The notes below the pieces were generated by a model, which saw only the letters and a program-made list of their open reading frames with translations, was not told where the DNA came from and searched no databases. From a virus: DNA of 44,905 nucleotides. Positions 2,417 through 44,905 of this stretch are shown here, in pieces. Positions within the stretch are counted from its first letter, which is position 1. Each line of letters starts with the position of its first letter. The stretch spans positions 1 through 44,905 of the IMG/VR virus record IMGVR_UViG_3300042198_000071; one strand, 5' to 3'. A program made the translations under genes and the position numbers.

Positions 2417-3139
2417 TCATGCCCACTCCCGCGACAAGTTGAGGAAGCGTGTGGTTTTGCCGTCAAAGAGCAGTTCGACGATGCCGGTGGGGCCATTGCG
2501 CTGCTTGGCGATGATGATCTCCGACACGTTCTCCTTGCCGGCGTTTTCCGCAGCCCACTCCTGATCGCCGTTGTGGTAGTACGCCTCACGGTGGAGCATC
2601 ATCACCACGTCGGCGTCCTGCTCGATGGAGCCCGATTCGCGGAGGTCCGACAGCATCGGCTTCTTGCTCTCTCGGCCCTCGGGGTTGCGGTTGAGCTGCG
2701 ACAGGCAGATCACCGGCACCCGCAGTTCACGGGCCAGCGCTTTGACTGAGCGGCTGATGGCCGAGACTTCGGCCTGGCGGCTTTCGGAGCCGGGGAAACT
2801 CATGAGCTGCATGTAGTCGATGACAATGCACTGGATCGACTGCTGCGAAGCGAGGCGGCGGGCCTTGGCACGCAGCTCCATCGCGCTGATGCCCGGCGTG
2901 TCGTCGATGAACATCGGAGCCTGCGAAAGCTCGTCGGCTGTCTCCTGCAGGCGGGCAAGCTCCTCGGAGTTGAGCATGTTGCGGCGCATCCGCTGACTGT
3001 CGACACCCGAGCGGGCGCTGAGCAGTCGCTCGGCAAGCTGCTGCTTGGACATTTCGAGGGAGAACACGGCCACGGGCAGTTTGCTGTCCACTGCTGTAAG
3101 ATGACGATCAAAATGGCAAGCCGCGACAGATCGCGTCAA
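2417..3139 (-). pseudogene. dnaB: Truncated DnaB replicative helicase (C-terminal RecA core only)
   Basis: DnaB homology begins at about 3092 and runs to a normal C-terminus (FLNLSREWA). Visible elements are FSLEMSKQQL after the P-loop region, IQCIVIDYMQLM (Walker B, D-Y-M-Q-L), LARELRVPVICLSQLNR (motif H3), and LSDLRESGSIEQDAD with the arginine-finger region. The N-terminal primase-interaction domain and the Walker A loop are missing. Upstream of 3092 the frame runs into repeat sequence and opens only with a TTG at 3139. Without a P-loop it cannot be a working helicase. It looks like a captured piece of a bacterial dnaB, and its break point coincides with the three-way repeat boundary. Confidence 0.8.
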
Positions 3140-3332
3140 ACCTCGTCAATGTTCTGATGGGGCCTGAAGTTACGATCAGCGGCGGGCAAAAAAAAGCCCC
3201 CGACCAAAATGGCAAGCGGGGGCGTAAAAGGCGGGTTGGCTGGATCGGTATTTGGCAAACAAACCGCGTTTTTGGGGGCGTTAAACAGGGTGCCCCGCGC
3301 GCCGCCCCGCGCGCCGCGCGCTCCCCGCGCGC
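2962..3332. repeat. Direct repeat copy B (371 bp)
   Basis: Same as copy A at 1-371 with one substitution. The boundary between dnaB sequence and the 240-bp core is at 3092/3093, exactly where the third copy (44784) loses similarity. To its right lies the methylase remnant instead of the HTH gene. Confidence 0.95.
3188..3223 (-). terminator. Rho-independent terminator of the leftward early operon
   Basis: Minus-strand GC stem of 7 bp (3217-3223 with 3196-3202) followed by eight T residues. It lies 58 bp past the stop codon of the last gene of the operon that starts near 9564. Confidence 0.85.
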
Positions 3333-3989: not shown

Positions 3990-4062
3990 TGGAGATGGTC
4001 CGGCTCGAACGGACGACTTCCTGCTTGCGGAGCAGGCGCTCTACCAACTGAGCTACATCCCC
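3990..4062 (-). tRNA. tRNA-Ala (anticodon CGC)
   Basis: 73-nt cloverleaf. The acceptor stem GGGGATG pairs with CATCTCC (one G-U). The D-arm TAGCTCAGTTGGTAGAGC is canonical, the T-arm is GTCCG-TTCGAGC-CGGAC and the discriminator is A. The anticodon stem CCTGC/GCAGG closes a loop TCCGCAA, giving anticodon CGC (codon GCG). Position 33, almost always U, is C here. The body is close to ordinary bacterial tRNA-Ala. No CCA is encoded. It lies in the early operon between protein genes. Confidence 0.85.
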
Positions 4063-4125
4063 GAGGCTTTCGAAAACCCCAGCCACGCCGGTCAGACGGG
4101 GCGGGGCGAAAAGGAGGAGTATGAA

Positions 4126-4197
4126 TAGCGGGAGCAGGATTCGAACCTGCGGCCTCCTGGGAATGAGCCAGGCGAGCTACCACTGCTCCATCCCGCC
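4126..4197 (-). tRNA. tRNA-Met (CAT), initiator-like
   Basis: 72-nt cloverleaf with anticodon loop CTCATTC (CAT) on a CCTGG/CCAGG stem, T-arm GCAGG-TTCGAAT-CCTGC, and acceptor GGCGGGA pairing with TCCCGCT. The first pair is a weak G-U, recalling the unpaired 1-72 of initiator tRNAs. The D-arm (GGAGCAGTGGTAGCTC) also resembles bacterial tRNA-fMet. The three consecutive G-C pairs of a true initiator anticodon stem are not fully present (a T-A pair is at the third position). It could instead be an elongator, or serve Ile after modification; I favour initiator-like Met. Confidence 0.8.
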
Positions 4198-9204: not shown

Positions 9205-9510
9205 TCAGACGGCGGAAGTGGTGGCAGGAGCAGCGGAAGCCGCTTCGACGAGGTCGGCGATCTCAGGCAGGTCTTTGTTGAACTCCTGAAAGAAGTCGTC
9301 GGTGAGAAACGCCGTCACGGTCCCGTTGGTGTAAATGCGACCGCGGCGCTCGATGGGGCCCGGAAGCATCAGTTTCAGGCAGGCGATCAGAGACTTCTCG
9401 TGTGAGACGTTGTGGATCGAGACCTCACATTCAAGGTCCAACGGGATTCCGTTCTGGTCGAGCTTGTCGGCCAGATTCCTCAACATGATGGCGGCGTGGC
9501 TGGTAGTCAT
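9205..9510 (-). CDS. Hypothetical protein, 101 aa
   Basis: First gene behind the leftward early promoter at 9564-9592. A small soluble protein with an amphipathic N-terminal helix (AIMLRNLADKLDQNGI) and a beta-rich middle (LECEVSIHNVSHEKSLIACL). No family recognised. Its position resembles early accessory genes upstream of recombination functions. Confidence 0.75.
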   Translation of the reverse strand: MTTSHAAIMLRNLADKLDQNGIPLDLECEVSIHNVSHEKSLIACLKLMLPGPIERRGRIYTNGTVTAFLTDDFFQEFNKDLPEIADLVEAASAAPATTSAV

Positions 9511-9558
9511 GGCGGTGACTCCTGAACAGGGGTGTGGGGTACGACTCTTCGCAACGAT

Positions 9559-9575
9559 GGTGAGTTTTACTCAAC
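9559..9575. promoter_or_regulatory. 17-bp operator (early left, site 1)
   Basis: GGTGAGTTTTACTCAAC, matching the genome-wide operator at 14 of 17 positions. It overlaps the -10 of the leftward early promoter. Confidence 0.65.
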
Positions 9576-9592
9576 ACTCAGGACGATGTCAA
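9564..9592 (-). promoter_or_regulatory. Leftward early promoter (PL-like)
   Basis: Minus strand: TTGACA (9587-9592), 17-bp spacer, TAAAAC (9564-9569). It is flanked by two operators whose centres are 41 bp apart (about four helical turns), which would favour cooperative repressor binding. It drives the recombination and accessory operon 9510 to 3281. Confidence 0.7.
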
Positions 9593-9599
9593 GGCCCCG

Positions 9600-9616
9600 A
9601 ATGAGGAATTCGCAAC
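9600..9616. promoter_or_regulatory. 17-bp operator (early left, site 2)
   Basis: Minus strand GTTGCGAATTCCTCATT. It lies just upstream of the -35 of the leftward early promoter and is the only clear site whose consensus orientation lies on the minus strand. Confidence 0.6.
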
Positions 9617-9672
9617 AAAAATTATCCACAATGAGATGCCGTGAGGTGACGCCGACGGTCTACAGCGTGAAA

Positions 9673-10263
9673 TCAGGGGCGAATCCAGAGGACCGGGGAA
9701 ACAGACGTGATGTCCACGGACTCCTCGGCCTCGCCTGTTGCCGGCAGCAGCAGTGAGTAACGCTCACGCCTCAACCCGCGTCGCACGTAGGCCAGACGGG
9801 TCTTATCATCCGCATCGACGACAGCCAGCCGACCGATGCACTCAGCAGGCGTGGTTTCCGTACCGACTACCAGTAGCGCCCCGTCCATGTAGGCCAACGC
9901 ACTGCCAGACGATCGAGCCAGCAGTCCATAGGCCCCGGTAGGTGTATCCAGCGGGACCGTCACCCTGTCGATGGGCGACTTGGGGTCCATGTGGATGATG
10001 CCCCGATGATCGACCACGCCGACGACATCAACTGCAGCGCGGTGTTTTCTGGCAGACAGCCCAAGGGCCCTGTCAACGTCGTCCCGGCTGACGCCAAGTT
10101 CGTCAGCAATCCGAACAGCCTCGGCTGCTGACACTTTTCGCTTGCCGTGGATCGCGTAGCTGAGCGACGCCGGATCAATGCCGAGCCGCCCAGCAAACTT
10201 CCGCTGAGAAATGCCGCGCTCGGCGAGGACGGACTTAAACCACGCGGTGTCAACCTTGGTCAT
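9673..10263 (-). CDS. CI-like phage repressor (HTH + S24-like domain), 196 aa
   Basis: Residues about 8-65 are an HTH_3 domain (GISQRKFAGRLGIDPASLSY, then KRKVSAAEAVRIADELGVS). Residues about 85-190 look like the S24/LexA dimerisation fold (TGAYGLLARSSGSALAYMDG, LLVVG, GRLAVVDADDKTRLAYVRRG). The usual G-D-S-M around the catalytic Ser is replaced by SSGSA, and the catalytic-Lys region reads YVRRGLRR without Lys, so self-cleavage is doubtful. The start at 10263 has AAGGAG seven bases upstream. Divergent from the Cro-like gene, it is the expected master immunity repressor and likely ligand of the eleven 17-bp operators. Confidence 0.85.
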   Translation of the reverse strand: MTKVDTAWFKSVLAERGISQRKFAGRLGIDPASLSYAIHGKRKVSAAEAVRIADELGVSRDDVDRALGLSARKHRAAVDVVGVVDHRGIIHMDPKSPIDRVTVPLDTPTGAYGLLARSSGSALAYMDGALLVVGTETTPAECIGRLAVVDADDKTRLAYVRRGLRRERYSLLLPATGEAEESVDITSVSPVLWIRP

Positions 10264-13535: not shown

Positions 13536-16073
13536 ATGCCCATCGACTTCCAAGCCATCGCAGCCGACCTGTTGAGCCAGGCCCGAAGCCTGCTCCCTCA
13601 GTGGTTCCCCCAGGGCAGGTTCATGGGCCGCGAGTTCGTCGTGGGCAATCTTGCAGGCGACCCGGGTGGCTCGCTGTCGATCAACACTGAGACGGGCCAG
13701 TGGGCCGACTTTGCCGGTGGAGCCAGAGGCGGCGACCTCGTCGCGCTGTACGCCGCCATGAAGGGCATCAGCCAGGCCGACGCCGCAAGGCAACTGTCGG
13801 GCTCATCCTCGCAGCCGCGAACGCCGGCACGAAAACCACCAGCCCGCAAGACGACCATCGGCTTGCCCCCGGCGGATGCCCCATCTCCAGACTTCTCACA
13901 CAAGGTCCACGGCCCCGCCTCGTCACACTGGACCTACCGCACCGCGGACGGTCAGGTTATCGGGCACATCAGCCGTCACGACCCGAGGCAGCCGGGCGAC
14001 CGCAAGCAGATCATCCCGTGGGTCTGGAACGTGACGGACCGAAGGTGGTGCAACCTCTCGTTTGAGAAGCCCCGTCCGCTCTACGGTCTGGACCTGCTGG
14101 CAGCGAACAAGACGGCCCCGGTCCTGATCGTGGAGGGCGAAAAGGCCGCCGACGCCGCACGCCAGATCGTTGGCGACCGCTACGTCGTCATCACATGGCC
14201 CGGCGGATCGAAGGCCGCGCATCACGTGGACTGGACGCCAGCCCACGGCCGCAGGCTGCTCCTGTGGCCTGACGCCGACCGCCACCAGTACGGCAGCGGA
14301 CACGCCATGGCGGGCCAGCAGATGCCCTACGAGGAGCAGCCGGGTCACGCCGTCATGGTGCAGATCGCGGGCCTGCTCCGTCCGCACTGCCCCGAGATCA
14401 AGATTCTGGACGTGCAAGACGTGGAGGCTGACGGCTGGGATGCGGCGGACGCCTTGGCCGAGGGCTGGGACTGGCCCCGCCTGCTGGAATGGGCACGGCC
14501 ACGCGCTCGAGTCTGCGGGGCGATGCCGGTTGACGAGGAGCCTGAGCCGGAGATGGAAGAGCCCGGCGAATGCGAGCCCGGCCCACCACCGCAGCAATAC
14601 GACGCATTCGTCCCGATCACACTGGGGCAGCGCGACGCTTATGGGCGACTGGTTTTGTCGAAGGACCGCACCTTGCCGACTGCCGTGGCCTACGTCGAAC
14701 AGTTCCACCGGCATCCACAGGGCCTGATGACGCTCCACTACCATGCGGGCCGGTTCCTCGCATGGGAGAACAACCGTTGGGCGGAGATGGAGGACGCTGC
14801 GCTCAAGGCCAAAATCCATCCTTGGCTTCACAATTCGGTCCAGCAGCGTCTGAACAAGCAGACCGGGGAGTATGAGGCATCGCCGTTTCCCGACAACTCC
14901 GCGTCAATCAACAATGCCATCGACGCGCTGCGCAACCACACGATGTTGACACAGGACGTCCAGCCGGCCTGCTGGCTCAGCGGGGACTCACCAGCCCCGG
15001 ACCTCGACCCGAACCATATCATCGCATGCCGATCGTTCCTGCTCCACTTGCCGACCATGCAGCGCATCGAGCCGACGCCGCGGTACTTCAACACGGCCGC
15101 CCTGCCGTTCGACCACGATCCATCAGCGGGCCTGTCGAGTCGGTGGGTCAACTTCCTTCAAGACCTATGGGACGACGACCTTGAGTCGATGGACCTGCTT
15201 CAAGAGTGGTTCGGCTACTGCCTCGCCCCGGACACGTCTCAACAGAAGATGATGCTGATCGTCGGCCCCAAGCGGTCTGGCAAGGGCACAATCGCACGGA
15301 TTCTGCGGGCACTGGTCGGAGAACAGAACGTGGCCGGCCCAACCGTCGAAAGCATCGGCGAGCAGTTTGGTCTCCAGCAACTCATCGGCAAGAGCTTGGC
15401 GATCGTGTCTGACGCCAGGTTCTCCGGCAATGACATCCAGATCATCACCGAGCGTCTGCTGTGCATCAGCGGCGAGGACACCCTGACCATCCGACGCATG
15501 TACACGAATCACGCCACGATGAAACTCCCGACCCGGTTCACGTTCCTCTCGAATGAGCTGCCACGGTTCGCCGACGCATCCGGGGCACTCGTGGGCCGGT
15601 TCGTTATGCTCAAGCTGGAGGAGTCGTTCTATGGGCGCGAAGATCCAAAACTGACGCCGCGCCTGCTTGAGGAACTGCCGGGCATCCTGAACTGGGCGAT
15701 CGAGGGTTGGCATCGCCTGAAGGAACGCGGCCGGTTCAAGCAGCCCACCATCTCAGAGCAGATGCTTCAGGAGATGGACGACTTGGCGAGTCCGGTGTCG
15801 GCGTTCGTTCGCGACCGATGCGAGGTCTGCTCGGGACACCGTGTTTCGACGGACGAACTGTATGCGGCATGGAAAACGTGGTGCGAGTCCGAGGGCAAAC
15901 ATCCGACAGCCAAGAACGTGTTTAGCCGCGACCTGACGGCGGCATTCCAGCGCATCCGCCGCATCCGCAACTCGCACACCGGCGATTCAAGCTACGAAGG
16001 CATCAGCCTTCGCGGATCAGCCGGGGCACTGGACGAGTACCCGACTTACGACCACCTCTACTCGCCGTCCTGA
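13536..16073 (+). CDS. Primase-helicase (TOPRIM + SF3), 845 aa
   Basis: The N-terminus (about 1-90) resembles the primase entry domain (FAGGARGGDLVALYAAMKG). About residues 185-250 are TOPRIM-like (PVLIVEGEKAADAARQIVG, then LLLWPDADRH). The C-terminal half is a D5/P4-type SF3 helicase: Walker A GPKRSGKGTIARILRAL near 575, Walker B KSLAIVSDAR, motif C FLSNELPRF, then GALVGRFVMLKL. It should prime and unwind at the phage origin. No zinc-finger Cys cluster is visible at the N-terminus, so template recognition may differ from CHC2 primases. Last gene of the rightward operon. Confidence 0.88.
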   Translation: MPIDFQAIAADLLSQARSLLPQWFPQGRFMGREFVVGNLAGDPGGSLSINTETGQWADFAGGARGGDLVALYAAMKGISQADAARQLSGSSSQPRTPARKPPARKTTIGLPPADAPSPDFSHKVHGPASSHWTYRTADGQVIGHISRHDPRQPGDRKQIIPWVWNVTDRRWCNLSFEKPRPLYGLDLLAANKTAPVLIVEGEKAADAARQIVGDRYVVITWPGGSKAAHHVDWTPAHGRRLLLWPDADRHQYGSGHAMAGQQMPYEEQPGHAVMVQIAGLLRPHCPEIKILDVQDVEADGWDAADALAEGWDWPRLLEWARPRARVCGAMPVDEEPEPEMEEPGECEPGPPPQQYDAFVPITLGQRDAYGRLVLSKDRTLPTAVAYVEQFHRHPQGLMTLHYHAGRFLAWENNRWAEMEDAALKAKIHPWLHNSVQQRLNKQTGEYEASPFPDNSASINNAIDALRNHTMLTQDVQPACWLSGDSPAPDLDPNHIIACRSFLLHLPTMQRIEPTPRYFNTAALPFDHDPSAGLSSRWVNFLQDLWDDDLESMDLLQEWFGYCLAPDTSQQKMMLIVGPKRSGKGTIARILRALVGEQNVAGPTVESIGEQFGLQQLIGKSLAIVSDARFSGNDIQIITERLLCISGEDTLTIRRMYTNHATMKLPTRFTFLSNELPRFADASGALVGRFVMLKLEESFYGREDPKLTPRLLEELPGILNWAIEGWHRLKERGRFKQPTISEQMLQEMDDLASPVSAFVRDRCEVCSGHRVSTDELYAAWKTWCESEGKHPTAKNVFSRDLTAAFQRIRRIRNSHTGDSSYEGISLRGSAGALDEYPTYDHLYSPS

Positions 16074-16170
16074 TGCTACCCCGCCTGCTACCCCGCACAT
16101 TCCCGGCGATCTCATTTTATCCGTTCGTCATGTCTCACTTATCGCGTATCCGCAAGGCTTTACGTCAGAA

Positions 16171-16216
16171 CTGGGGAACCAGGATTCGAACCTGGACTAG
16201 CTGATCCAGAGTCAGT
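16171..16216 (-). other. attP core: 3' part of tRNA-Gln(CTG)
   Basis: On the minus strand, an anticodon arm (CTGA / TCAG stem around loop CTCTGGA, anticodon CTG), a variable region, a perfect T-arm (CCAGG-TTCGAAT-CCTGG) and the acceptor 3' strand TTCCCCA are present. The 5' half of a tRNA is absent. It stands immediately in front of the integrase gene. Phages that insert into tRNA genes carry just such a 3' fragment, which rebuilds the tRNA after insertion. Confidence 0.85.
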
Positions 16217-16259
16217 TAAAGCCAATTCACGGCAATCCACGGCTTGCCATTAAAGCCAA
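16216..16259 (+). repeat. Candidate integrase arm-binding sites
   Basis: TTAAAGCCAA occurs at 16216-16225 and again at 16250-16259, 34 bp apart. An inverted TAAAGCC lies on the other side of the core at 16156-16161. Between the direct copies is an inverted repeat GGCAA...TTGCC. Repeats flanking a tRNA-type core are what a tyrosine integrase and its excisionase would bind. Confidence 0.6.
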
Positions 16260-16306
16260 CTAAGGCTATGACTTGTGACTACCCGCAACACACCCGAGGT
16301 CACGCC

Positions 16307-17440
16307 ATGTCACGAAAATCTGCTACCCCAGTGCTACCCGCCGCAGCTTCTGGCCGCACATCAGATCCCGACGGCAAAGTGCCGGGGCTGGCTCTGCGAA
16401 CGAACCAGCGAGGCTCCGCATGGTATCTCTACTACCGCACCCGGACGGGCCGGCAGCGGCGACCGAAGCTGGGCAACCTCGAGATCATGACCCGCACCGA
16501 GGCGCGTGAACTCGCACGGGAGATGCTGGTCGCAGTCGCACGCGGGGAAGACCCAGCCGCGGTGCATCGCCGCAGCCGCCGCACGGTGGCACAGATGATG
16601 GAGCGGTTCGAGCGGGAGCATCGCCCGCACATCAAGGACCGAACTTGGACGGACTACGCCAGGATCATCGACTTGCACATCCTGCCGACGCTGGGGCGTC
16701 TGAACCTGTCCGACGTGACCCGGGACGACGTATCGGCCTTGCACCTCAAGATGCGGGACACCCCGTATCAGGCGAACCGAATGGTCGCCGTTCTCCACAA
16801 GGCGTTCGAGATGGCGACGGACTGGGGCTGGATCGACGCCAATCCGGTCCGCGTTCGCCGGTACAAGGAGCACCAGCGGCGCAGATACCCCCAGCCGGAC
16901 GAGGCTTCCCGGCTTCTGGCGGCTCTACAGGACGTCCGGGCCGACCAACCGTACTTTGCAGCCTTGGTCGCACTGCTCATCTTCACGGGCTGTCGTCTGA
17001 ACGAGATCATGCACGCCCGATGGGACTGGGTCACCGGCGACGGCTTGCACCTGCCAGACTCCAAGGGCGGGGCCAAGATCGTCCCGCTGAACAGCTACGC
17101 GCGAGAGGTCTTGCGGGAACTGCCGCGACAGACCGGGAACCCCTACATCATCTGCGGACGCCGACGCGGTAGGCCAATGCAGTGTCCGACAGGGTTGTGG
17201 TCCGACCTGATCCGACGAGCTGGCATCACGAACCTCCGCATCCATGACCTGCGGCGGTACTACGCATCGGTCGCGCTCGGCCGCAATTTGGCCCTCGAAA
17301 CAGTGGGCCAGCTTCTCGGCCATCGTCAGGCCCAGACCACGAAGCGGTACGCATTCCTGATGACGGACGCGGCATCGGCGGCATCGCAGATCGTGGGCGA
17401 GGCCATAAAAAAATCCGGCTCCCGCGAGGCAAACGGGTAG
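16307..17440 (+). CDS. int: Tyrosine integrase, 377 aa
   Basis: An N-terminal arm-binding/DUF4102-like region (PGLALRTNQRGSAWYLYYRT) is followed by a core-binding SAM-like domain (VAQMMERFEREHRPHIKDRT). The catalytic domain has Arg in FTGCRLNEI, HDLRRYY (H-x-x-R), LLGHRQAQTT and the nucleophile Tyr in TKRYAFL. The start at 16307 has GAGGT seven bases upstream; an in-frame ATG at 16244 would begin inside the arm repeats. It lies beside the tRNA-Gln-type attP, so insertion into a host tRNA-Gln gene is expected. The stop codon lies inside a leftward terminator hairpin. Confidence 0.9.
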   Translation: MSRKSATPVLPAAASGRTSDPDGKVPGLALRTNQRGSAWYLYYRTRTGRQRRPKLGNLEIMTRTEARELAREMLVAVARGEDPAAVHRRSRRTVAQMMERFEREHRPHIKDRTWTDYARIIDLHILPTLGRLNLSDVTRDDVSALHLKMRDTPYQANRMVAVLHKAFEMATDWGWIDANPVRVRRYKEHQRRRYPQPDEASRLLAALQDVRADQPYFAALVALLIFTGCRLNEIMHARWDWVTGDGLHLPDSKGGAKIVPLNSYAREVLRELPRQTGNPYIICGRRRGRPMQCPTGLWSDLIRRAGITNLRIHDLRRYYASVALGRNLALETVGQLLGHRQAQTTKRYAFLMTDAASAASQIVGEAIKKSGSREANG

Positions 17441-19592: not shown

Positions 19593-19622
19593 AGTATATC
19601 AACCCAATGTGATTTTCTCATT
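19593..19622 (-). promoter_or_regulatory. Tail-fibre promoter with 17-bp operator
   Basis: Minus strand: ATGAGA (19616-19621), 17-bp spacer, TATACT (19593-19598). The operator AATGTGATTTTCTCATT fills 19606-19622 and also contains the stop codon of the polyvalent gene. Confidence 0.75.
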
Positions 19623-22600
19623 TATCTTTCGGTGGCCCAAACAGCAGCGGCCTTGGATCACCGCCATGCTGGGACATGTAGACGATGCCTTCGATCGTCT
19701 TGACAGCCTGCCCGGTCGGAAGATGGAACAGGATGCCCGAGGTCTTGGCGGCGGCCTTGAAAAGCCCCCAGTCGAGTTCGCCCTGACCGACCTGCATGAT
19801 CAGGTCGCTGGCAGCCTTGAACCCGCCAAGACCAGCAGGCCCGCTGTAGCGGTATCCTTCAAAGGCTCCAGCCAGGTCGCGGATACCGAGGAAGTTGCCC
19901 GCCATCATCGACAGATGTTCCTTGATCATGATCGACACGAACCCATCATTGTCGTCATCGTCTCCGGACGACATGAGGGCACGCGACGCAGCGACCATCG
20001 CCGCCGGCAGCGAGTAGAGCAGGATGAAGTCTCCGGCGAGCTTGGCGATGGCAGCGGGTGACCACTCGTTTCTCCGGGCCGCCGCGATGGATTCCGCCGT
20101 CGCCTGATAGGTCGCAGAGAAGTAGGCGTAGAACACGGTGAACGCCTGAAACATCCGACTGCGCTGGACGCCGGACAGGTCTTTCCGCAGGCCCGACGAC
20201 TGAGCGTCGATCACCGCCTGATCAGCCATCGCAGATGCATCTTCTTCCGACCTGTTCTTTGCACGGGCGTTCTCGTATGCGGCCAGCCACGTGGGGATAT
20301 CAATCATCAACTGCGACCGCGTCGTCATGTAGTACGCCCAGGCTTGCACGTTCTGATGCCAGTCGTTGCCGCGGACCTGATTCAAGACCTCGCTGGCTTC
20401 TCGGATCTGGGTGGTGGCGCGGTTTTTCATAAAGCTCGACCGGGCCTGAATGAACTCGAACACCGACTCAGCGCGGCTCGGATCATGGAACGCCCGGACC
20501 ACAGCCCGATTGAACGCCTTGACGCCGACACGCCGCATCGACTGGCCGACGCCAGTAACCTGCATCACGGCGGTAGACGCGCTGAAACCGGTCGTGGCGA
20601 TGCTGACGCCGTTGCGGACCCACCTGAGGAACTTGTCCGCACCGCTGTCGGCAAGATCGGCAATCGCCACATCCTGAATGAGCGTGCGCATCTCCCGGAG
20701 CACCTTCGGTCCCATATGATCCTGAATCAACGTGGCGAACCGATCGTTCCTCAGCAGCTTGTTGAAGTCCATCACGGCTTCGCGGTGCGTCAGGTCGTGA
20801 ATGACCTGTGCGACATGCGTGCTCACCACATCCAGCGACAGCAGAAGCGGCTTGCCCAGGCCCTCGCCACGCTCCTTTACGTGGTTCTTCTTCGTGCTTG
20901 CGCTCGTCGCCCGGCCGAGGTAGTAGAGCTTGGCCAGCGACTGCTCGTTGAGCTGACCTGCTTTGGGCGACCGATCAGAGTCATAGGCGATCGGGAAGTA
21001 CCCGCCGGCCAGCTTGCCGAACTTCGTCACGATCTCGGCGGCCTCCACCTTTTCGGGTGGCACACCCTTGACGCGGGTTTCAAGGGCCGCGATCTCCGGC
21101 CAATACTCGTTGATCATGTCGAAGATGCCTTGAACCAGTCCCCAGTCCGACTCGTCCAGCGTGTCGAGGACGGCCTGAACCTGCGCCTCGTCCCACCCTT
21201 CGCCGGACATCAGGCGTTCGCGGTTGCCCTCGTTGCCCCAGTTCAGGGCCACGCACAGCCTGGACTCAAGGTTCAGCGACCGCTTGATCTGCTCGACGTA
21301 GACCTTTTTGCCGAGGCTTTCAGACTTGCCCCACGCATCGAACAGGCTCTTGATCTTGTCCGCCGCCAACTGCTTCATCTCAACTTCCTTGTCCGCCGCC
21401 TCGTTGAGCGGACGCACAAGCAGTTGCCACAGCACGCCGCCGTCCTCGTCGCCGTCCATCTGGCGAGCCCACGACGACAGTTTCCGATGCGCCGCAAGGA
21501 ACCCTTCGACGCCGTCGATGACTTTGTCCAGCTTCGTCCGCTCGGAGGCGATATTGACCTGACGCCGTTTGGGAACGTTCTCGCGGATCGATGCCTCGGC
21601 CTTTGTCAGGGCCTCGTCCAGGTCCCGCAGTTCCTTCTGCTTGAGCAGGGTGTTCTTGAGATCGGCCAGATGCTCAAGCTGCTTGGCGGCCAGATAGACG
21701 GCCTCCAGCTTCTCCAGCGGCATTTCACGCCAGTTCTCGCGGTCGGCTTCATCGAGCAGCCGCTCGTCGATGTCGAATTGGAAGTCGTCGCCCTGCTGCT
21801 CCTTCTGGCGTTCGATCCACTTCCGCAGGCCCTCGCGCTTGTCGAGCTGCTTGAGTGTGACCGTGGCGAACTCGTACCGCCGCATCAAGCCGTCGATCTG
21901 TTCGAGGTAGTCACCCTTGGCCTTGCCGATTTTCTGCCGAACCGACGCCGTCTCGAACCGGCGCATGAACTTGGCGTACTTCTTGGCCGCGTCCCGGGCC
22001 TCGACCGCCGCCCGGTACAACTCGTGGTTGAGCAGTTCCTTCTGCTTCTGTTTGAACGCCTCCTCCAAGTCGCCAGACAGCATCGCTTCCACCGCCGCCT
22101 TGGACGCCCGAGCCTGAGCCCGCAGGTACAGGCCAGGCTTGATGTCCCGGACCTTCTGGCCGGCCACGATGCCCATAGCCTGACCACGGATGGCCATCAG
22201 GTTCGGCACACGCAGAGGCCCGCCAGCGACCTTGCGGACCACGTTGCGGAACACCGACTGCCGACGTTCGAACAAATGCTTGAGTTCCAGCATCAGCACC
22301 TTGGACCGCTTTTCGCCGTGGACGGCCTTCTGAGCCGCTTCGGAGATGGAACCATCCATGGCCGGGTCCGGGTACTTCTCCAGCATCCTGCGGTCAACCT
22401 CCGCCCGGATTGCCGCTTCCATCGGGACAGTGCGAATCAGCGTCTCCACCAGCACGTCACCGCTGGCGAAGCCGAACAGCTCGGCGGCGACATCCACGTC
22501 AACGCCGCCGGTGGCCGAGTAAATGTAGGGTCCGCCATGGCTGGGATTGCGAGGACCGGGGAGCTTCTTGAGGATGTGTTCGCCATACCGCTCGACCAGA

Positions 22601-25600
22601 GACGCCTTGGACAGCTTCACCGGGTTGCCTGGGACAGGGTTGCCGTCAGGCAGCTTGCCGTGCTGGAGATGAGCCAGAGCGACGTACTCGGGAATCGGGT
22701 AGAACTCGGGCTCGACATCCTGACGAATCTTCGCCTTCTCTTCTTTCCACCACTTCTTCCGCTCACGCGCGATCGAGTGCATCACCTGCTGCTGGACCTC
22801 CTCCTCAGCAGCCAAGCGAGCATCGGCCACAGCTTCCGTGTACGCCGCAAACTGCTGGTCGGTCATGCCTGCGGCGGCAGCCGACTCGAACACCGGAGCC
22901 ACGCCAGCTTCTGTTTCGGCAGCGTCGATCTCCTCCTGTGTGGCGACCATGCGGTCCATGACGGCCCGAACCTCGTCGGAGATGTTCGCACGGCGGCCAG
23001 CCATGGAACGATAGATCGCCAGCAGCCACACGCGAAACGCAGCAAACGCCCGGCGCAGCGACGACGACGGGGCGTCGCCATTGAGCAGGTAGTTCTCGAA
23101 CGTCTCAGCCCACTTTTCATGGTGCTTGACGGTGATCTCGTCCCTGCTCTTGACCTCCAGAAACTCCAGGATCGTCTGCCAGTCAGCCTTCACGTCCTCA
23201 GTCGCCGCCGCGTCTTGAGCGAGATCAGCAAACACCTCAAGGAACATATGCCCCGACTCGTGCAGGAACGTCGAAAGATCGGCGTTCTCCGTGAACCGGA
23301 TCGTCATCTTGCGATCTTCGCCCCAGCGGATGGAGCCACGCTTTTCGTCGTTGGGGGCGGATTGAAACATCACCCCCTCCGCCGCCTTCTCCTCGTTCAC
23401 CTTCAGCGAGCCGCGATCGAACGGAACCTGCTCCAGCGCGTCGAGCGGAACGCTGATATCTTCACCCACCAAGTTCCCGTTCTCGACCGAAAACGGGCGG
23501 CCGTAGATCGTCATCTCGTGGCCGTGGAACAGCCTCTTTGACTCGATCATGTCGAGCGGGGCTTCCTGATCTTTGCGGCTGACGGCGTTGCGGTAGAGCC
23601 ACGCGTACATCAGCATGTCGGGCGGGGTAGACGAATCACGCAGCCACTCGTCGACGCGGTCCTCAAGCCGCTGCCCCTCGCCTTTGATCGCTTCCTCGAT
23701 GGCGGCTTCGTAGGTTCGGCCCCACCTGCCACGCTGATCCTCGGCTGCATCGTTGTTGACGCCGATGCCAAGGGCGCGAATCCTGGACTTCTGCTCCGTC
23801 GTCAAGCCCTCGAACTCGTCCGCGGAGATCGTGAGCGTATCGCTCTCCAGCGTGTTGTCGTAGTTGTCTCTGCCGTAATCGAGCATCAGCACTTCCATCG
23901 CCTCACGCGCCGACAGTTGGAAGTACGGGTTGTCCTTCAACCACTCGCGGACGGCCTTGCGGCTGTAGGTCTTGACCGCAGGCTGAATCTTGGGGTTGCT
24001 GTCCTCCAGCACTTCATCAAACTGATCGTACTGGCTCTTTGCCCGCTCCTGAATGTCCCGGACGAAACGCGGGGCGTACCGCTCCAACAAGTCCTTTGCA
24101 GACATCCCGACCCGAGACGCCATCGCATTGAAGCCGCGCTCCAGCAACAATGCGTACTGTTCAGCCGTGCCCGCATTGAAGCCTGACTCCACAAGCTGAG
24201 CTACCACGCCCTTGCGGATATCCGCCGCCAAATCATCTTCCGCACCAGACTTCGCCTGCTGGCCCTGCTGGGCTTCGGCTTGGGCCTCCACCCACGCCTT
24301 AGCCTCGCGCGGCGTCATCATGTCGTGAGACAGCCGCAGGTCATCCGCCAGCCCACGGTGAGCGTCCGTCGCCGCGATCTTGGCGGCGTAGGCTCCGGTC
24401 GGGATTACCAGATCATGCCCTGCCTCGACCGCCTGATCGTAAGCCGCCCCGTCGCCAAGCACCTCCTCAGCAACCTTGCGCGGGTCCTGCCCAACCGACT
24501 GGAAATACTCGGTCCATGCCTGAGCCGGGATGTAGACATTCTCAACCGGCCCGTCCTTCGTCAGATCGTTCACCAGCGACTGCATCCGATCCGGGAGCCG
24601 CTGCTGGACCTTGGACTTGGCGACCGTGCTGGACAGGGCCTCGAAGAACGACTGCTGCCGCTGAGCGTTGACAGCCTCGTACCGGCCCGCCAGAGCCGCG
24701 TTGAGGGTCGCACCGCCGGCGGGAACCATGGCGAACGCAACGAACTGCTGCATGAACTCGTCAGCCGTCGTGAACTCGTAGGTGTCGTCCAGCGTCGTGG
24801 CGTAGCGGACGGCCTTGGCGACCTCCTCTTCGCCAATTTCGGCCAGCACGCCGTTCCAGCCCGACGCCTGCCCCAGCTTCGACGTGAAACGGGCGAAGGT
24901 GCTGGTCGGGTTCTGCCGCAGCCACCGAACCGCCGCCCATGTCTTGAGAGCCGCGACCTTGTCGGCCAGCGGAATCTTCGAGATGCCCTTCTGGATCAGC
25001 CCACCCGCCGACCGCTCGGTCCAGACCTCGATCGTGTTCCCGAGCCCGGCCTTGGCCAGAGCCTCGACGAACCCATCGCCGGGGTCAAGGATCGTCCGTT
25101 GGATCGTGCCGTCGTCCATCACTTCCGCGCCGACCGCCGGTGTCATGCGGCTGATGACCTCACCCACCGCCCTGGGAGCAAGAGCGACTTGGGCCTGTAC
25201 CGCGGCACCGCCAGCCGCGCCTACCATCGCCGCCGCACGCCGCCCCATGGTGATGCCGATCCGGCGACCGGCCACCTTGCTCATCCAGTCCGTGAGGAAC
25301 GCAATGGAGCCATTCGTCACGCCCTTGCGTGCCGCTGTGTAGATGCCGCCCGTCAGGGCCAACTCGCCAGCAAACGCCGGGAGCTGGACGACGATGTCGG
25401 CCACGCCGCCCATGAACGTCGAGCCACGCCGGACATCGTTGTCGAACTGGAGCAGGAGCTTCAAGTCAGCCGGCGTCTCCTCCCCGGCTGAAAACCGCGT
25501 CATGGCCCCGTACAGGTCAAACGCCGCCTGAGCCTCTGGAGCCGCAGCGAGGAACGGCGCCAGCTTCTCGGGGGTTTCAGCCAACTGGACAATCGTTTCC

Positions 25601-26265
25601 GCGACACCCTTGGGGTCGGACGGGAGGTAAATCTTGCTTCTATCCTCGCCTTCGGCGACCCACTGTTCCGTCGCCTTCTGCTCCTCCTGTGTAACCGGCA
25701 GTGACCCTTGAGGCCCGAACTGTGTCGCCATCCGCAGGAACGACACGAGCCGGGACACGGGCTTGCGGAAATTGATCGGAGCCGAATCACGCTCGACCGT
25801 CATGCCGGACTCAGTCGCCATTCGCCGCAGGCTGTCACGGACCTCGGGCGAAAACATGCCATCACCCAGCGAGGCGTCGGCAATCTCTTCATCGGTGACA
25901 GTGATCTTGGCCAGCTCCTCGAGCGCGTCGAGATCGTCTTTGGCGATGCCGAAGTTGTCTTTGACCTGGAGCCAGTTCCCCAGCTTCGGCGACCGCTCGT
26001 AGAGCCCAGCCATGTCCCGCATGTAGACTTGACGCTCGACCTCCGGGAGATTCCGCTCCACCACGTCCGCAGGCAAACCGCTCCTCTTGGCCAGATTGAT
26101 AGCCTTGGCCCGCTGGTCTGGGTTGATCCCCGCCGACAGGTAGGCCGACGCATTGAACCGCACGCGGGCCGCCTGCTCCTGCCGGTCCAGCAGGGCCTCG
26201 TACTCGTTGACTTCGGGCGTAGCGGGCATGCCGCTGACGATGTTGTCGTACTCGTTATTGGGCAT
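19618..26265 (-). CDS. Giant polyvalent internal virion / DNA-ejection protein, 2215 aa
   Basis: Very large for a podovirus internal protein (T7 gp16 is about 1300). Residues about 285-360 hold hydrophobic Ala/Gly-rich stretches (DIVVQLPAFAGELALTGG, VGAAGGAAVQAQVALAP) that may enter membranes. Near residue 1000 is a zinc-protease-like FLHESGHMFLEV (HExGH). Long charged coiled coils fill about 1150-1650. The C-terminal part (about 1850-2200) resembles the terminal domain of large phage polyvalent proteins, with a membrane-like GDFILLYSLPAAMVAASRAL. It is last in the virion operon after the gp15-like and gp14-like genes, the position of T7 gp16. Probably ejected with DNA. Confidence 0.8.
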   Translation of the reverse strand: MPNNEYDNIVSGMPATPEVNEYEALLDRQEQAARVRFNASAYLSAGINPDQRAKAINLAKRSGLPADVVERNLPEVERQVYMRDMAGLYERSPKLGNWLQVKDNFGIAKDDLDALEELAKITVTDEEIADASLGDGMFSPEVRDSLRRMATESGMTVERDSAPINFRKPVSRLVSFLRMATQFGPQGSLPVTQEEQKATEQWVAEGEDRSKIYLPSDPKGVAETIVQLAETPEKLAPFLAAAPEAQAAFDLYGAMTRFSAGEETPADLKLLLQFDNDVRRGSTFMGGVADIVVQLPAFAGELALTGGIYTAARKGVTNGSIAFLTDWMSKVAGRRIGITMGRRAAAMVGAAGGAAVQAQVALAPRAVGEVISRMTPAVGAEVMDDGTIQRTILDPGDGFVEALAKAGLGNTIEVWTERSAGGLIQKGISKIPLADKVAALKTWAAVRWLRQNPTSTFARFTSKLGQASGWNGVLAEIGEEEVAKAVRYATTLDDTYEFTTADEFMQQFVAFAMVPAGGATLNAALAGRYEAVNAQRQQSFFEALSSTVAKSKVQQRLPDRMQSLVNDLTKDGPVENVYIPAQAWTEYFQSVGQDPRKVAEEVLGDGAAYDQAVEAGHDLVIPTGAYAAKIAATDAHRGLADDLRLSHDMMTPREAKAWVEAQAEAQQGQQAKSGAEDDLAADIRKGVVAQLVESGFNAGTAEQYALLLERGFNAMASRVGMSAKDLLERYAPRFVRDIQERAKSQYDQFDEVLEDSNPKIQPAVKTYSRKAVREWLKDNPYFQLSAREAMEVLMLDYGRDNYDNTLESDTLTISADEFEGLTTEQKSRIRALGIGVNNDAAEDQRGRWGRTYEAAIEEAIKGEGQRLEDRVDEWLRDSSTPPDMLMYAWLYRNAVSRKDQEAPLDMIESKRLFHGHEMTIYGRPFSVENGNLVGEDISVPLDALEQVPFDRGSLKVNEEKAAEGVMFQSAPNDEKRGSIRWGEDRKMTIRFTENADLSTFLHESGHMFLEVFADLAQDAAATEDVKADWQTILEFLEVKSRDEITVKHHEKWAETFENYLLNGDAPSSSLRRAFAAFRVWLLAIYRSMAGRRANISDEVRAVMDRMVATQEEIDAAETEAGVAPVFESAAAAGMTDQQFAAYTEAVADARLAAEEEVQQQVMHSIARERKKWWKEEKAKIRQDVEPEFYPIPEYVALAHLQHGKLPDGNPVPGNPVKLSKASLVERYGEHILKKLPGPRNPSHGGPYIYSATGGVDVDVAAELFGFASGDVLVETLIRTVPMEAAIRAEVDRRMLEKYPDPAMDGSISEAAQKAVHGEKRSKVLMLELKHLFERRQSVFRNVVRKVAGGPLRVPNLMAIRGQAMGIVAGQKVRDIKPGLYLRAQARASKAAVEAMLSGDLEEAFKQKQKELLNHELYRAAVEARDAAKKYAKFMRRFETASVRQKIGKAKGDYLEQIDGLMRRYEFATVTLKQLDKREGLRKWIERQKEQQGDDFQFDIDERLLDEADRENWREMPLEKLEAVYLAAKQLEHLADLKNTLLKQKELRDLDEALTKAEASIRENVPKRRQVNIASERTKLDKVIDGVEGFLAAHRKLSSWARQMDGDEDGGVLWQLLVRPLNEAADKEVEMKQLAADKIKSLFDAWGKSESLGKKVYVEQIKRSLNLESRLCVALNWGNEGNRERLMSGEGWDEAQVQAVLDTLDESDWGLVQGIFDMINEYWPEIAALETRVKGVPPEKVEAAEIVTKFGKLAGGYFPIAYDSDRSPKAGQLNEQSLAKLYYLGRATSASTKKNHVKERGEGLGKPLLLSLDVVSTHVAQVIHDLTHREAVMDFNKLLRNDRFATLIQDHMGPKVLREMRTLIQDVAIADLADSGADKFLRWVRNGVSIATTGFSASTAVMQVTGVGQSMRRVGVKAFNRAVVRAFHDPSRAESVFEFIQARSSFMKNRATTQIREASEVLNQVRGNDWHQNVQAWAYYMTTRSQLMIDIPTWLAAYENARAKNRSEEDASAMADQAVIDAQSSGLRKDLSGVQRSRMFQAFTVFYAYFSATYQATAESIAAARRNEWSPAAIAKLAGDFILLYSLPAAMVAASRALMSSGDDDDNDGFVSIMIKEHLSMMAGNFLGIRDLAGAFEGYRYSGPAGLGGFKAASDLIMQVGQGELDWGLFKAAAKTSGILFHLPTGQAVKTIEGIVYMSQHGGDPRPLLFGPPKDK

Positions 26266-44783: not shown

Positions 44784-44905
44784 GCTGTAAGATGACGATC
44801 AAAATGGCAAGCCGCGACAGATCGCGTCAAACCTCGTCAATGTTCTGATGGGGCCTGAAGTTACGATCAGCGGCGGGCAAAAAAAAAGCCCCCGACCAAA
44901 ATGGC
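44784..44905. repeat. Repeat copy C, truncated by window end
   Basis: Matches 132-252 and 3093-3213 except for one extra A in the poly-A run (nine instead of eight). The match stops on its left exactly at the dnaB/core boundary of the other copies. It ends in the middle of the terminator stem-loop, so the window end overlaps its beginning. Confidence 0.95.

Follow-up and report, generated by a model that had tools for sequence, protein, structure and literature searches.

The tRNA-Gln half in front of the integrase gene

In the phage DNA analysed here, a stretch of 44,905 bases that we call the window, an integrase gene (int) stands directly behind half of a tRNA gene. Is this half part of a working phage attachment site (attP), which of the surrounding repeats would the integrase bind, and into which host gene would the phage insert? 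The features that bear on these questions are the following.

13536-16073, plus strand: DNA primase gene, on the far side of the site from int (open reading frame list, domain and sequence searches)
16074-16093, plus strand: candidate left arm pair, TGCTACCC at 16074-16081 and 16086-16093, 12 bp apart (sequence repeats)
16171-16215, minus strand: 3′ half of a tRNA-Gln(CTG) gene, from position 28 in the anticodon arm to G73 (sequence, ARAGORN, Rfam)
16198-16218, no strand assigned: predicted core, the inverted repeat TAGCTGA / TCAGTTA flanking the anticodon loop (sequence; role proposed)
16205-16211, minus strand: anticodon loop, predicted 7-bp overlap (crossover) region (sequence; predicted from repeat ends in two integrated relatives, L008 and L009)
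16216-16225, plus strand: first copy of TTAAAGCCAA, touching the core (sequence)
16234-16246, plus strand: possible IHF site, one mismatch to WATCARNNNNTTR (weak)
16250-16259, plus strand: second copy of TTAAAGCCAA (sequence)
16307-17440, plus strand: int, a tyrosine integrase of 377 aa with Arm-DNA-bind_3, SAM-like and Phage_integrase domains (sequence, domain search)
16321-16339, plus strand: candidate right arm pair, TGCTACCC at 16321-16328 and 16332-16339, 11 bp apart (sequence repeats)

Read on the minus strand from 16215 to 16171, the half begins with an anticodon arm, CTGA-CTCTGGA-TCAG, which corresponds to tRNA positions 28-42 and places the anticodon CTG at 16209-16207. C43 and a variable loop of 4 nt follow, then a perfect 5-bp T-arm (CCAGG-TTCGAAT-CCTGG) and the acceptor strand TTCCCCA, with G73 at 16171. 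An earlier note on this DNA had described 46 bp of tRNA sequence; the anticodon arm, T-arm and acceptor strand proved real, but only 45 bp are safely tRNA because the 27:43 pair would be an A:C mismatch. The same note's placement of an attP in the 3′ half of a tRNA-Gln(CTG) gene is supported. The half has neither a 5′ half nor an encoded CCA, and int starts 91 bp past it. ARAGORN called no tRNA at 16171-16215, and the Rfam tRNA model scored the half at 21.1 bits, below the gathering score of 29; both outcomes are expected because only half a gene is present. Intact tRNA-Gln(CTG) genes in Methylorubrum and Sinorhizobium replicons were 86% identical over 43 nt and have their anticodon at the corresponding position. 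T-arm motifs of this quality occur five times on the two strands of the window: in this half, in the phage's two real tRNA genes and at two other places. RNA folding was uninformative (z -1.24). The stretch recurs, identical letter for letter, in another IMG/VR contig of this phage (L002/L007). The predicted core is symmetric at 6 of 7 positions of its inverted repeat, and G+C between the arm pairs is 51%, against 63% for the whole window.

The open reading frame of int is complete, and R230, K253, H313, R316, H339 and Y348, which we take to be the catalytic R, K, H, R, H and Y, were kept in a three-sequence alignment. We set its start at ATG 16307 because GAGG sits 7 nt ahead of this codon and because L029 agrees; among relatives whose site can be read, it is the nearest.

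Phages that practise tRNA-dependent lysogeny integrate at a short core, break the host tRNA and replace it with one of their own; excerpts of PMC10865867 describe a core of about 10 bp together with a phage tRNA of the same isotype. This phage does encode two tRNAs. However, these are Ala(CGC) and Met(CAT) rather than Gln, and the site holds the full 3′ half, so that the tRNA would be rebuilt on integration. We consider this explanation scarcely credible here.

Candidate arm sites and a smaller repeat

We found TGCTACCC four times in the 44,905 bases (both strands searched), always at this site and in one orientation. The copies start approximately 134 and 122 bp to the left of the core and 113 and 124 bp to the right, the left pair beginning directly after the primase stop codon and the right pair falling within int codons 5-11. 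Repeated arm-type sites are thus present on both sides of the core, as sequence repeats only. Shuffled versions of the window contained a mean of 0.49 copies, and at least four in 0 of 100 shuffles, although the motif was picked after being seen; for this reason the weight of the arm-site case lies on the relatives described below. In phages HP1 and P2, too, tandem pairs of arm sites flank the core, which in HP1 lies in the anticodon loop; this is a likeness of layout.

The earlier note had instead proposed TTAAAGCCAA as the arm sites. The repeats that it reported are there: two exact 10-bp copies lie 34 bp apart on the int side, an inverted partial copy (GGCTTTA) lies near the core at 16157-16163, and TTAAAGCC occurs nowhere else in the window. 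Yet both full copies are on one side of the core, whereas related integrases have tandem pairs on both sides at the place where the window has TGCTACCC, roughly 100-150 bp from the core. L029 keeps the TGCTACCC pairs and lacks TTAAAGCC on both strands of its 9.2-kb locus. The arm-site part of the proposal is not supported by the comparison with L029. The four TGCTACCC copies in two tandem pairs probably form the better arm-site set, TTAAAGCCAA probably does not serve the integrase in this way, and a genuine attP with TTAAAGCCAA arms strikes us as very unlikely. The copy of TTAAAGCCAA that touches the core is perhaps an excision-factor site.

Between the two TTAAAGCCAA copies lies the possible IHF site. 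The window has no exact match to WATCARNNNNTTR, which we take to be the IHF consensus. Among related loci, exact WATCARNNNNTTR occurred in 17 of 54 spacers on the right and, in viral loci, in 6 of 32 on the left, compared with 1 of 191 controls. The window itself has the one-mismatch site, and help from IHF at its attP is a suggestion.

Because the right TGCTACCC pair lies inside the first codons of int, bound integrase would cover the start of its own gene. In KplE1, the start of the integrase gene intS likewise overlaps the recombination site, and self-repression by IntS is reported in the part of PMC2951348 considered here; that overlap was tested and involves the promoter, whereas the window's candidate arm pair sits in the first codons. 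For IntS of ICEMlSymR7A, self-repression is drawn in a model in the excerpt of PMC11963761.

tRNA halves and arm pairs upstream of related integrases

Related integrases were drawn from viral contigs, from named genomes and from genomes of the class to which a Rhodospirillaceae genome belongs. In that class, 23 of 289 genomes had a match at E 1e-60 or better, and 12 loci were fetched; in the search of named genomes, the best near-full-length match was 38% identical. Twelve loci (L001, L002, L004, L007, L026, L027, L028, L036 and L082-L085) were left out as coming from the same phage, as duplicates or as fetched for other ends. The 86 loci that matched were reduced to 80 by merging identical integrase starts, and to 74, the window included, by dropping the six with less than 330 bp of upstream DNA (L003, L025, L030, L039, L074 and L076). 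Apart from the window itself, these integrases are 30-47% identical to that of the window. The loci are related to each other, so the locus counts given here are not independent. We also grouped integrases of at least 250 aa by single linkage at 70% identity, which gave 31 groups, of which 30 were eligible and the largest had 26 members.

An antisense tRNA T-arm was found upstream of int in 54 of 74 loci, compared with 1 of 299 control windows; a T-arm in the sense direction preceded int in 2 of 74, and 20 of 74 had no antisense tRNA upstream of int. ARAGORN identified three of the 54 as intact tRNA genes (L037, L071 and L080), the remaining 51 being halves. On the int side, an exact 8-mer repeated at 11 bp was present in 42 of these 54 loci and in 0 of 191 controls; with up to one mismatch allowed, the figures were 52 of 54 and 9 of 191. 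The two loci without such a pair, L037 and L080, both have intact tRNA genes, and every tRNA half had one (51/51 with up to one mismatch, 42/51 exact). By group, the antisense T-arm and the 11-bp pair occurred together in 20 of the 30 eligible groups; one of these (L071/L080) has an intact tRNA-Leu, which leaves 19 of 30 with a half and a pair. No antisense T-arm was found in the other 10 of 30 groups, nor was their attP.

When near copies were counted too, 37 of 51 viral loci had arm pairs of like sequence on both sides of the site, whereas none of the 14 genome loci did; shuffles gave 0 of 20 per locus. Integration would account for the absence from genome loci, because it should place the left pair at the other extremity of the element. 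A separate test for flanking pairs found none in 10 of 11 genome loci, the exception being L018, and the far end was checked for L008 and L009. The motif of the pair differs among other relatives (TGCGCGAA, TGCGCCC, TGCTTCCA, TGCTACCT, TGCTTACA, TGGTACC), and tRNA targets, judged by anticodon, include Gln, Met, Phe, Arg, Lys, Thr, Asn and Leu. L029, a different phage whose integrase is 47% identical to that of the window, combines a tRNA-Arg(ACG) half with TGCTACCC pairs on both sides, the right pair in the same first int codons as in the window. The closest integrases (50-51%; L003, L004 and L030) come from loci that begin within about 60 bp of int, and no att site was seen in them.

The two integrated relatives show the outcome of recombination. 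L008, from a Neomegalonema metagenome-assembled genome, is an 8.4-kb element with a tRNA-Arg(TCT) half adjoining int and an intact tRNA-Arg at the far end; 48 bp are identical between the half and the intact gene, and an arm pair (GGTGGTAC..) is present at both ends. L009, from Pseudoruegeria, is a 15-kb element in tRNA-Lys(TTT), again with a 48-bp identical repeat and the intact tRNA far from int; GTGGTAGCC-type pairs mark both ends, the int-side pair less exactly. In both, int is at the end opposite the restored tRNA and the arm pairs are kilobases apart. The repeats stop at tRNA positions 30 and 31, respectively, and so point most naturally to a crossover within the anticodon loop. In the window, by comparison, the two arm pairs together span 266 bp, a closeness shared with the other uncut phages. 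This arrangement supports phage DNA in its unintegrated form, as the earlier note had it. An uncut attP is the best reading of the window's tRNA half. Together, these data make us highly confident that 16074-16339 (266 bp) is the attP of a temperate podovirus-like phage, with TGCTACCC as its arms and tRNA-Gln(CTG) as its target.

Arms and tRNA targets appear to part company within integrase groups. In the 26-member group of L066, 15 loci use Met(CAT) and 10 use Phe(GAA) although their arms are nearly the same; L037, one of the Met members, holds an intact tRNA gene. The four members of the L089 group have Thr(TGT), Lys(CTT), Lys(TTT) and Thr(CGT), again with nearly the same arms. As far as these sequences tell, candidate arms in both groups follow the integrase and cores do not. 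A tentative extension, which we think possible but would not favour, is that an integrase lineage keeps its arms and gene order and swaps the tRNA half of its attP. In the window and L029 the right pair lies in the int coding sequence, so the site would fix the first residues of the integrase, and bound integrase would cover the gene start. The window would then represent a move into a host with a CCA-less tRNA-Gln gene, unlike the Alphaproteobacteria of many relatives. We make no claim that tRNA swapping is unreported.

Several relatives depart from the common arrangement. In L065 (3682-3920), perfect TGCGCCCT arm pairs flank a stretch in which no tRNA half could be recognised, and the target there may not be a tRNA. 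In L037 (3607-3914), a shorter tRNA-Met fragment sits to the right of the intact tRNA-Met and is itself flanked by two arm pairs. An intact antisense tRNA-Leu(CAA) replaces the half upstream of the integrases of L071 (3599-3684) and L080 (3603-3689). In L018 (about 9471-9740 of a Pseudovibrio genome contig), arm pairs flank a tRNA-Lys half, as in an uncut or tandem element. L016 (9487-9563) and L073 (about 40-110) have tRNA-Met in the int direction, opposite to the usual one; it is intact in L016.

Predicted insertion, host and known systems

In the reaction that we propose, the N-terminal domain of the integrase would bind the TGCTACCC pairs on both sides and its catalytic part the core around the anticodon loop. 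The attP would recombine with the matching place in a host tRNA-Gln(CTG) gene. The phage 3′ half would restore the tRNA at one end of the prophage, where the primase side and the left arm pair would also lie, and the host's own 3′ half would be displaced to the int-side end. Such restoration and displacement were seen in L008 and L009, not in the window's phage; since the window's attP has the same order as theirs, its prophage should place int away from the restored tRNA.

We searched for the host gene with the 45-mer of the half. There were 0 exact matches in genome contigs. With up to three mismatches, it was found in 0 of 15 genomes, in 0 of 398 genomes from the phylum of a Neomegalonema genome (G001) and in 0 of 40 from the phylum of a Sumerlaeota genome (G003), other phyla being hardly sampled. 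Among the matches that BLAST listed on plasmids and phages, none was both full-length and nearly identical. The host attB, which the earlier note had called predictable, thus stands as a prediction, but no genome searched carries it. The virion proteins resemble those of epsilon15 and Pseudomonas podoviruses, a likeness from which no host can be named.

GTT stands at the end of the window's half, whereas CCA follows position 73, or the place of that position, in 52 of 53 other loci, three of which have intact genes. This may point to a host tRNA-Gln gene without an encoded CCA, and such a host would stand apart from most Proteobacteria; alternatively, the phage copy may simply differ. The missing CCA, and the failure to find a host with the same half in the genomes searched, would also suit a relic, that is, a decayed phage tRNA gene or an old recombination scar that is no longer an attP. 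We consider a relic highly improbable: the T-arm, anticodon stem and G73 are perfect, the integrase gene is complete and keeps the residues common to its relatives, and both arm pairs are intact with the expected geometry.

With the uncut attP as the preferred reading, the arrangement is a known one, of which the window is a well-supported fresh example: tRNA halves in attP, anticodon-centred sites and paired arms are all described in the portions considered of PMC4383910, PMC3706429 and PMC11963761. In the excerpt of PMC3706429 on cluster J mycobacteriophages (Omega, BAKA), which use tRNA-Leu, the core (44 bp there) spans the anticodon loop to the tRNA 3′ half, and putative arm sites form direct-repeat pairs on both sides with a consensus starting TGC, as in the window. 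Arm-like sites also occur at their int start, inverted there and direct in the window, and their attP lies 3′ of int rather than 5′. The attP of ICEMlSymR7A is of similar size (283 bp), has several arm motifs and lies upstream of intS, and its arm consensus, TGKTGGTATC, is close to the GGTGGTACC and TGGTAGCC pairs of L008 and L009 (PMC11963761, in part). It differs in having five arm sites, against the window's two pairs, and in belonging to an integrative and conjugative element in tRNA-Phe, according to a reference title. Islander islands likewise have a tRNA 3′ fragment in attP, with the restored tRNA and the displaced fragment marking their ends, and 2083 listed islands have an anticodon-centred site (PMC4383910, in part); Islander is defined on integrated islands, whereas the window is the uncut form.

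The window offers a precise, testable attP for this phage, with a core and four predicted arm sites, and it predicts a host marker: a tRNA-Gln(CTG) gene that ends in the 45-nt half, probably without an encoded CCA. The relatives differ separately in arm motif, in integrase and in tRNA target; as a set, they could serve to study site choice by the arm-binding domain and could also show how integrases change tRNA targets.

Elsewhere in the window, positions 3990-4197 of the minus strand hold the two phage tRNA genes, and a minus-strand open reading frame of 2215 codons adjoins the tail genes (19618-26265). Positions 1-329 have an exact second copy at 2962-3290, and 227-252 are the same as the final 26 bases (44880-44905); this may be a repeat at which assembly opened or wrongly joined the circular genome.
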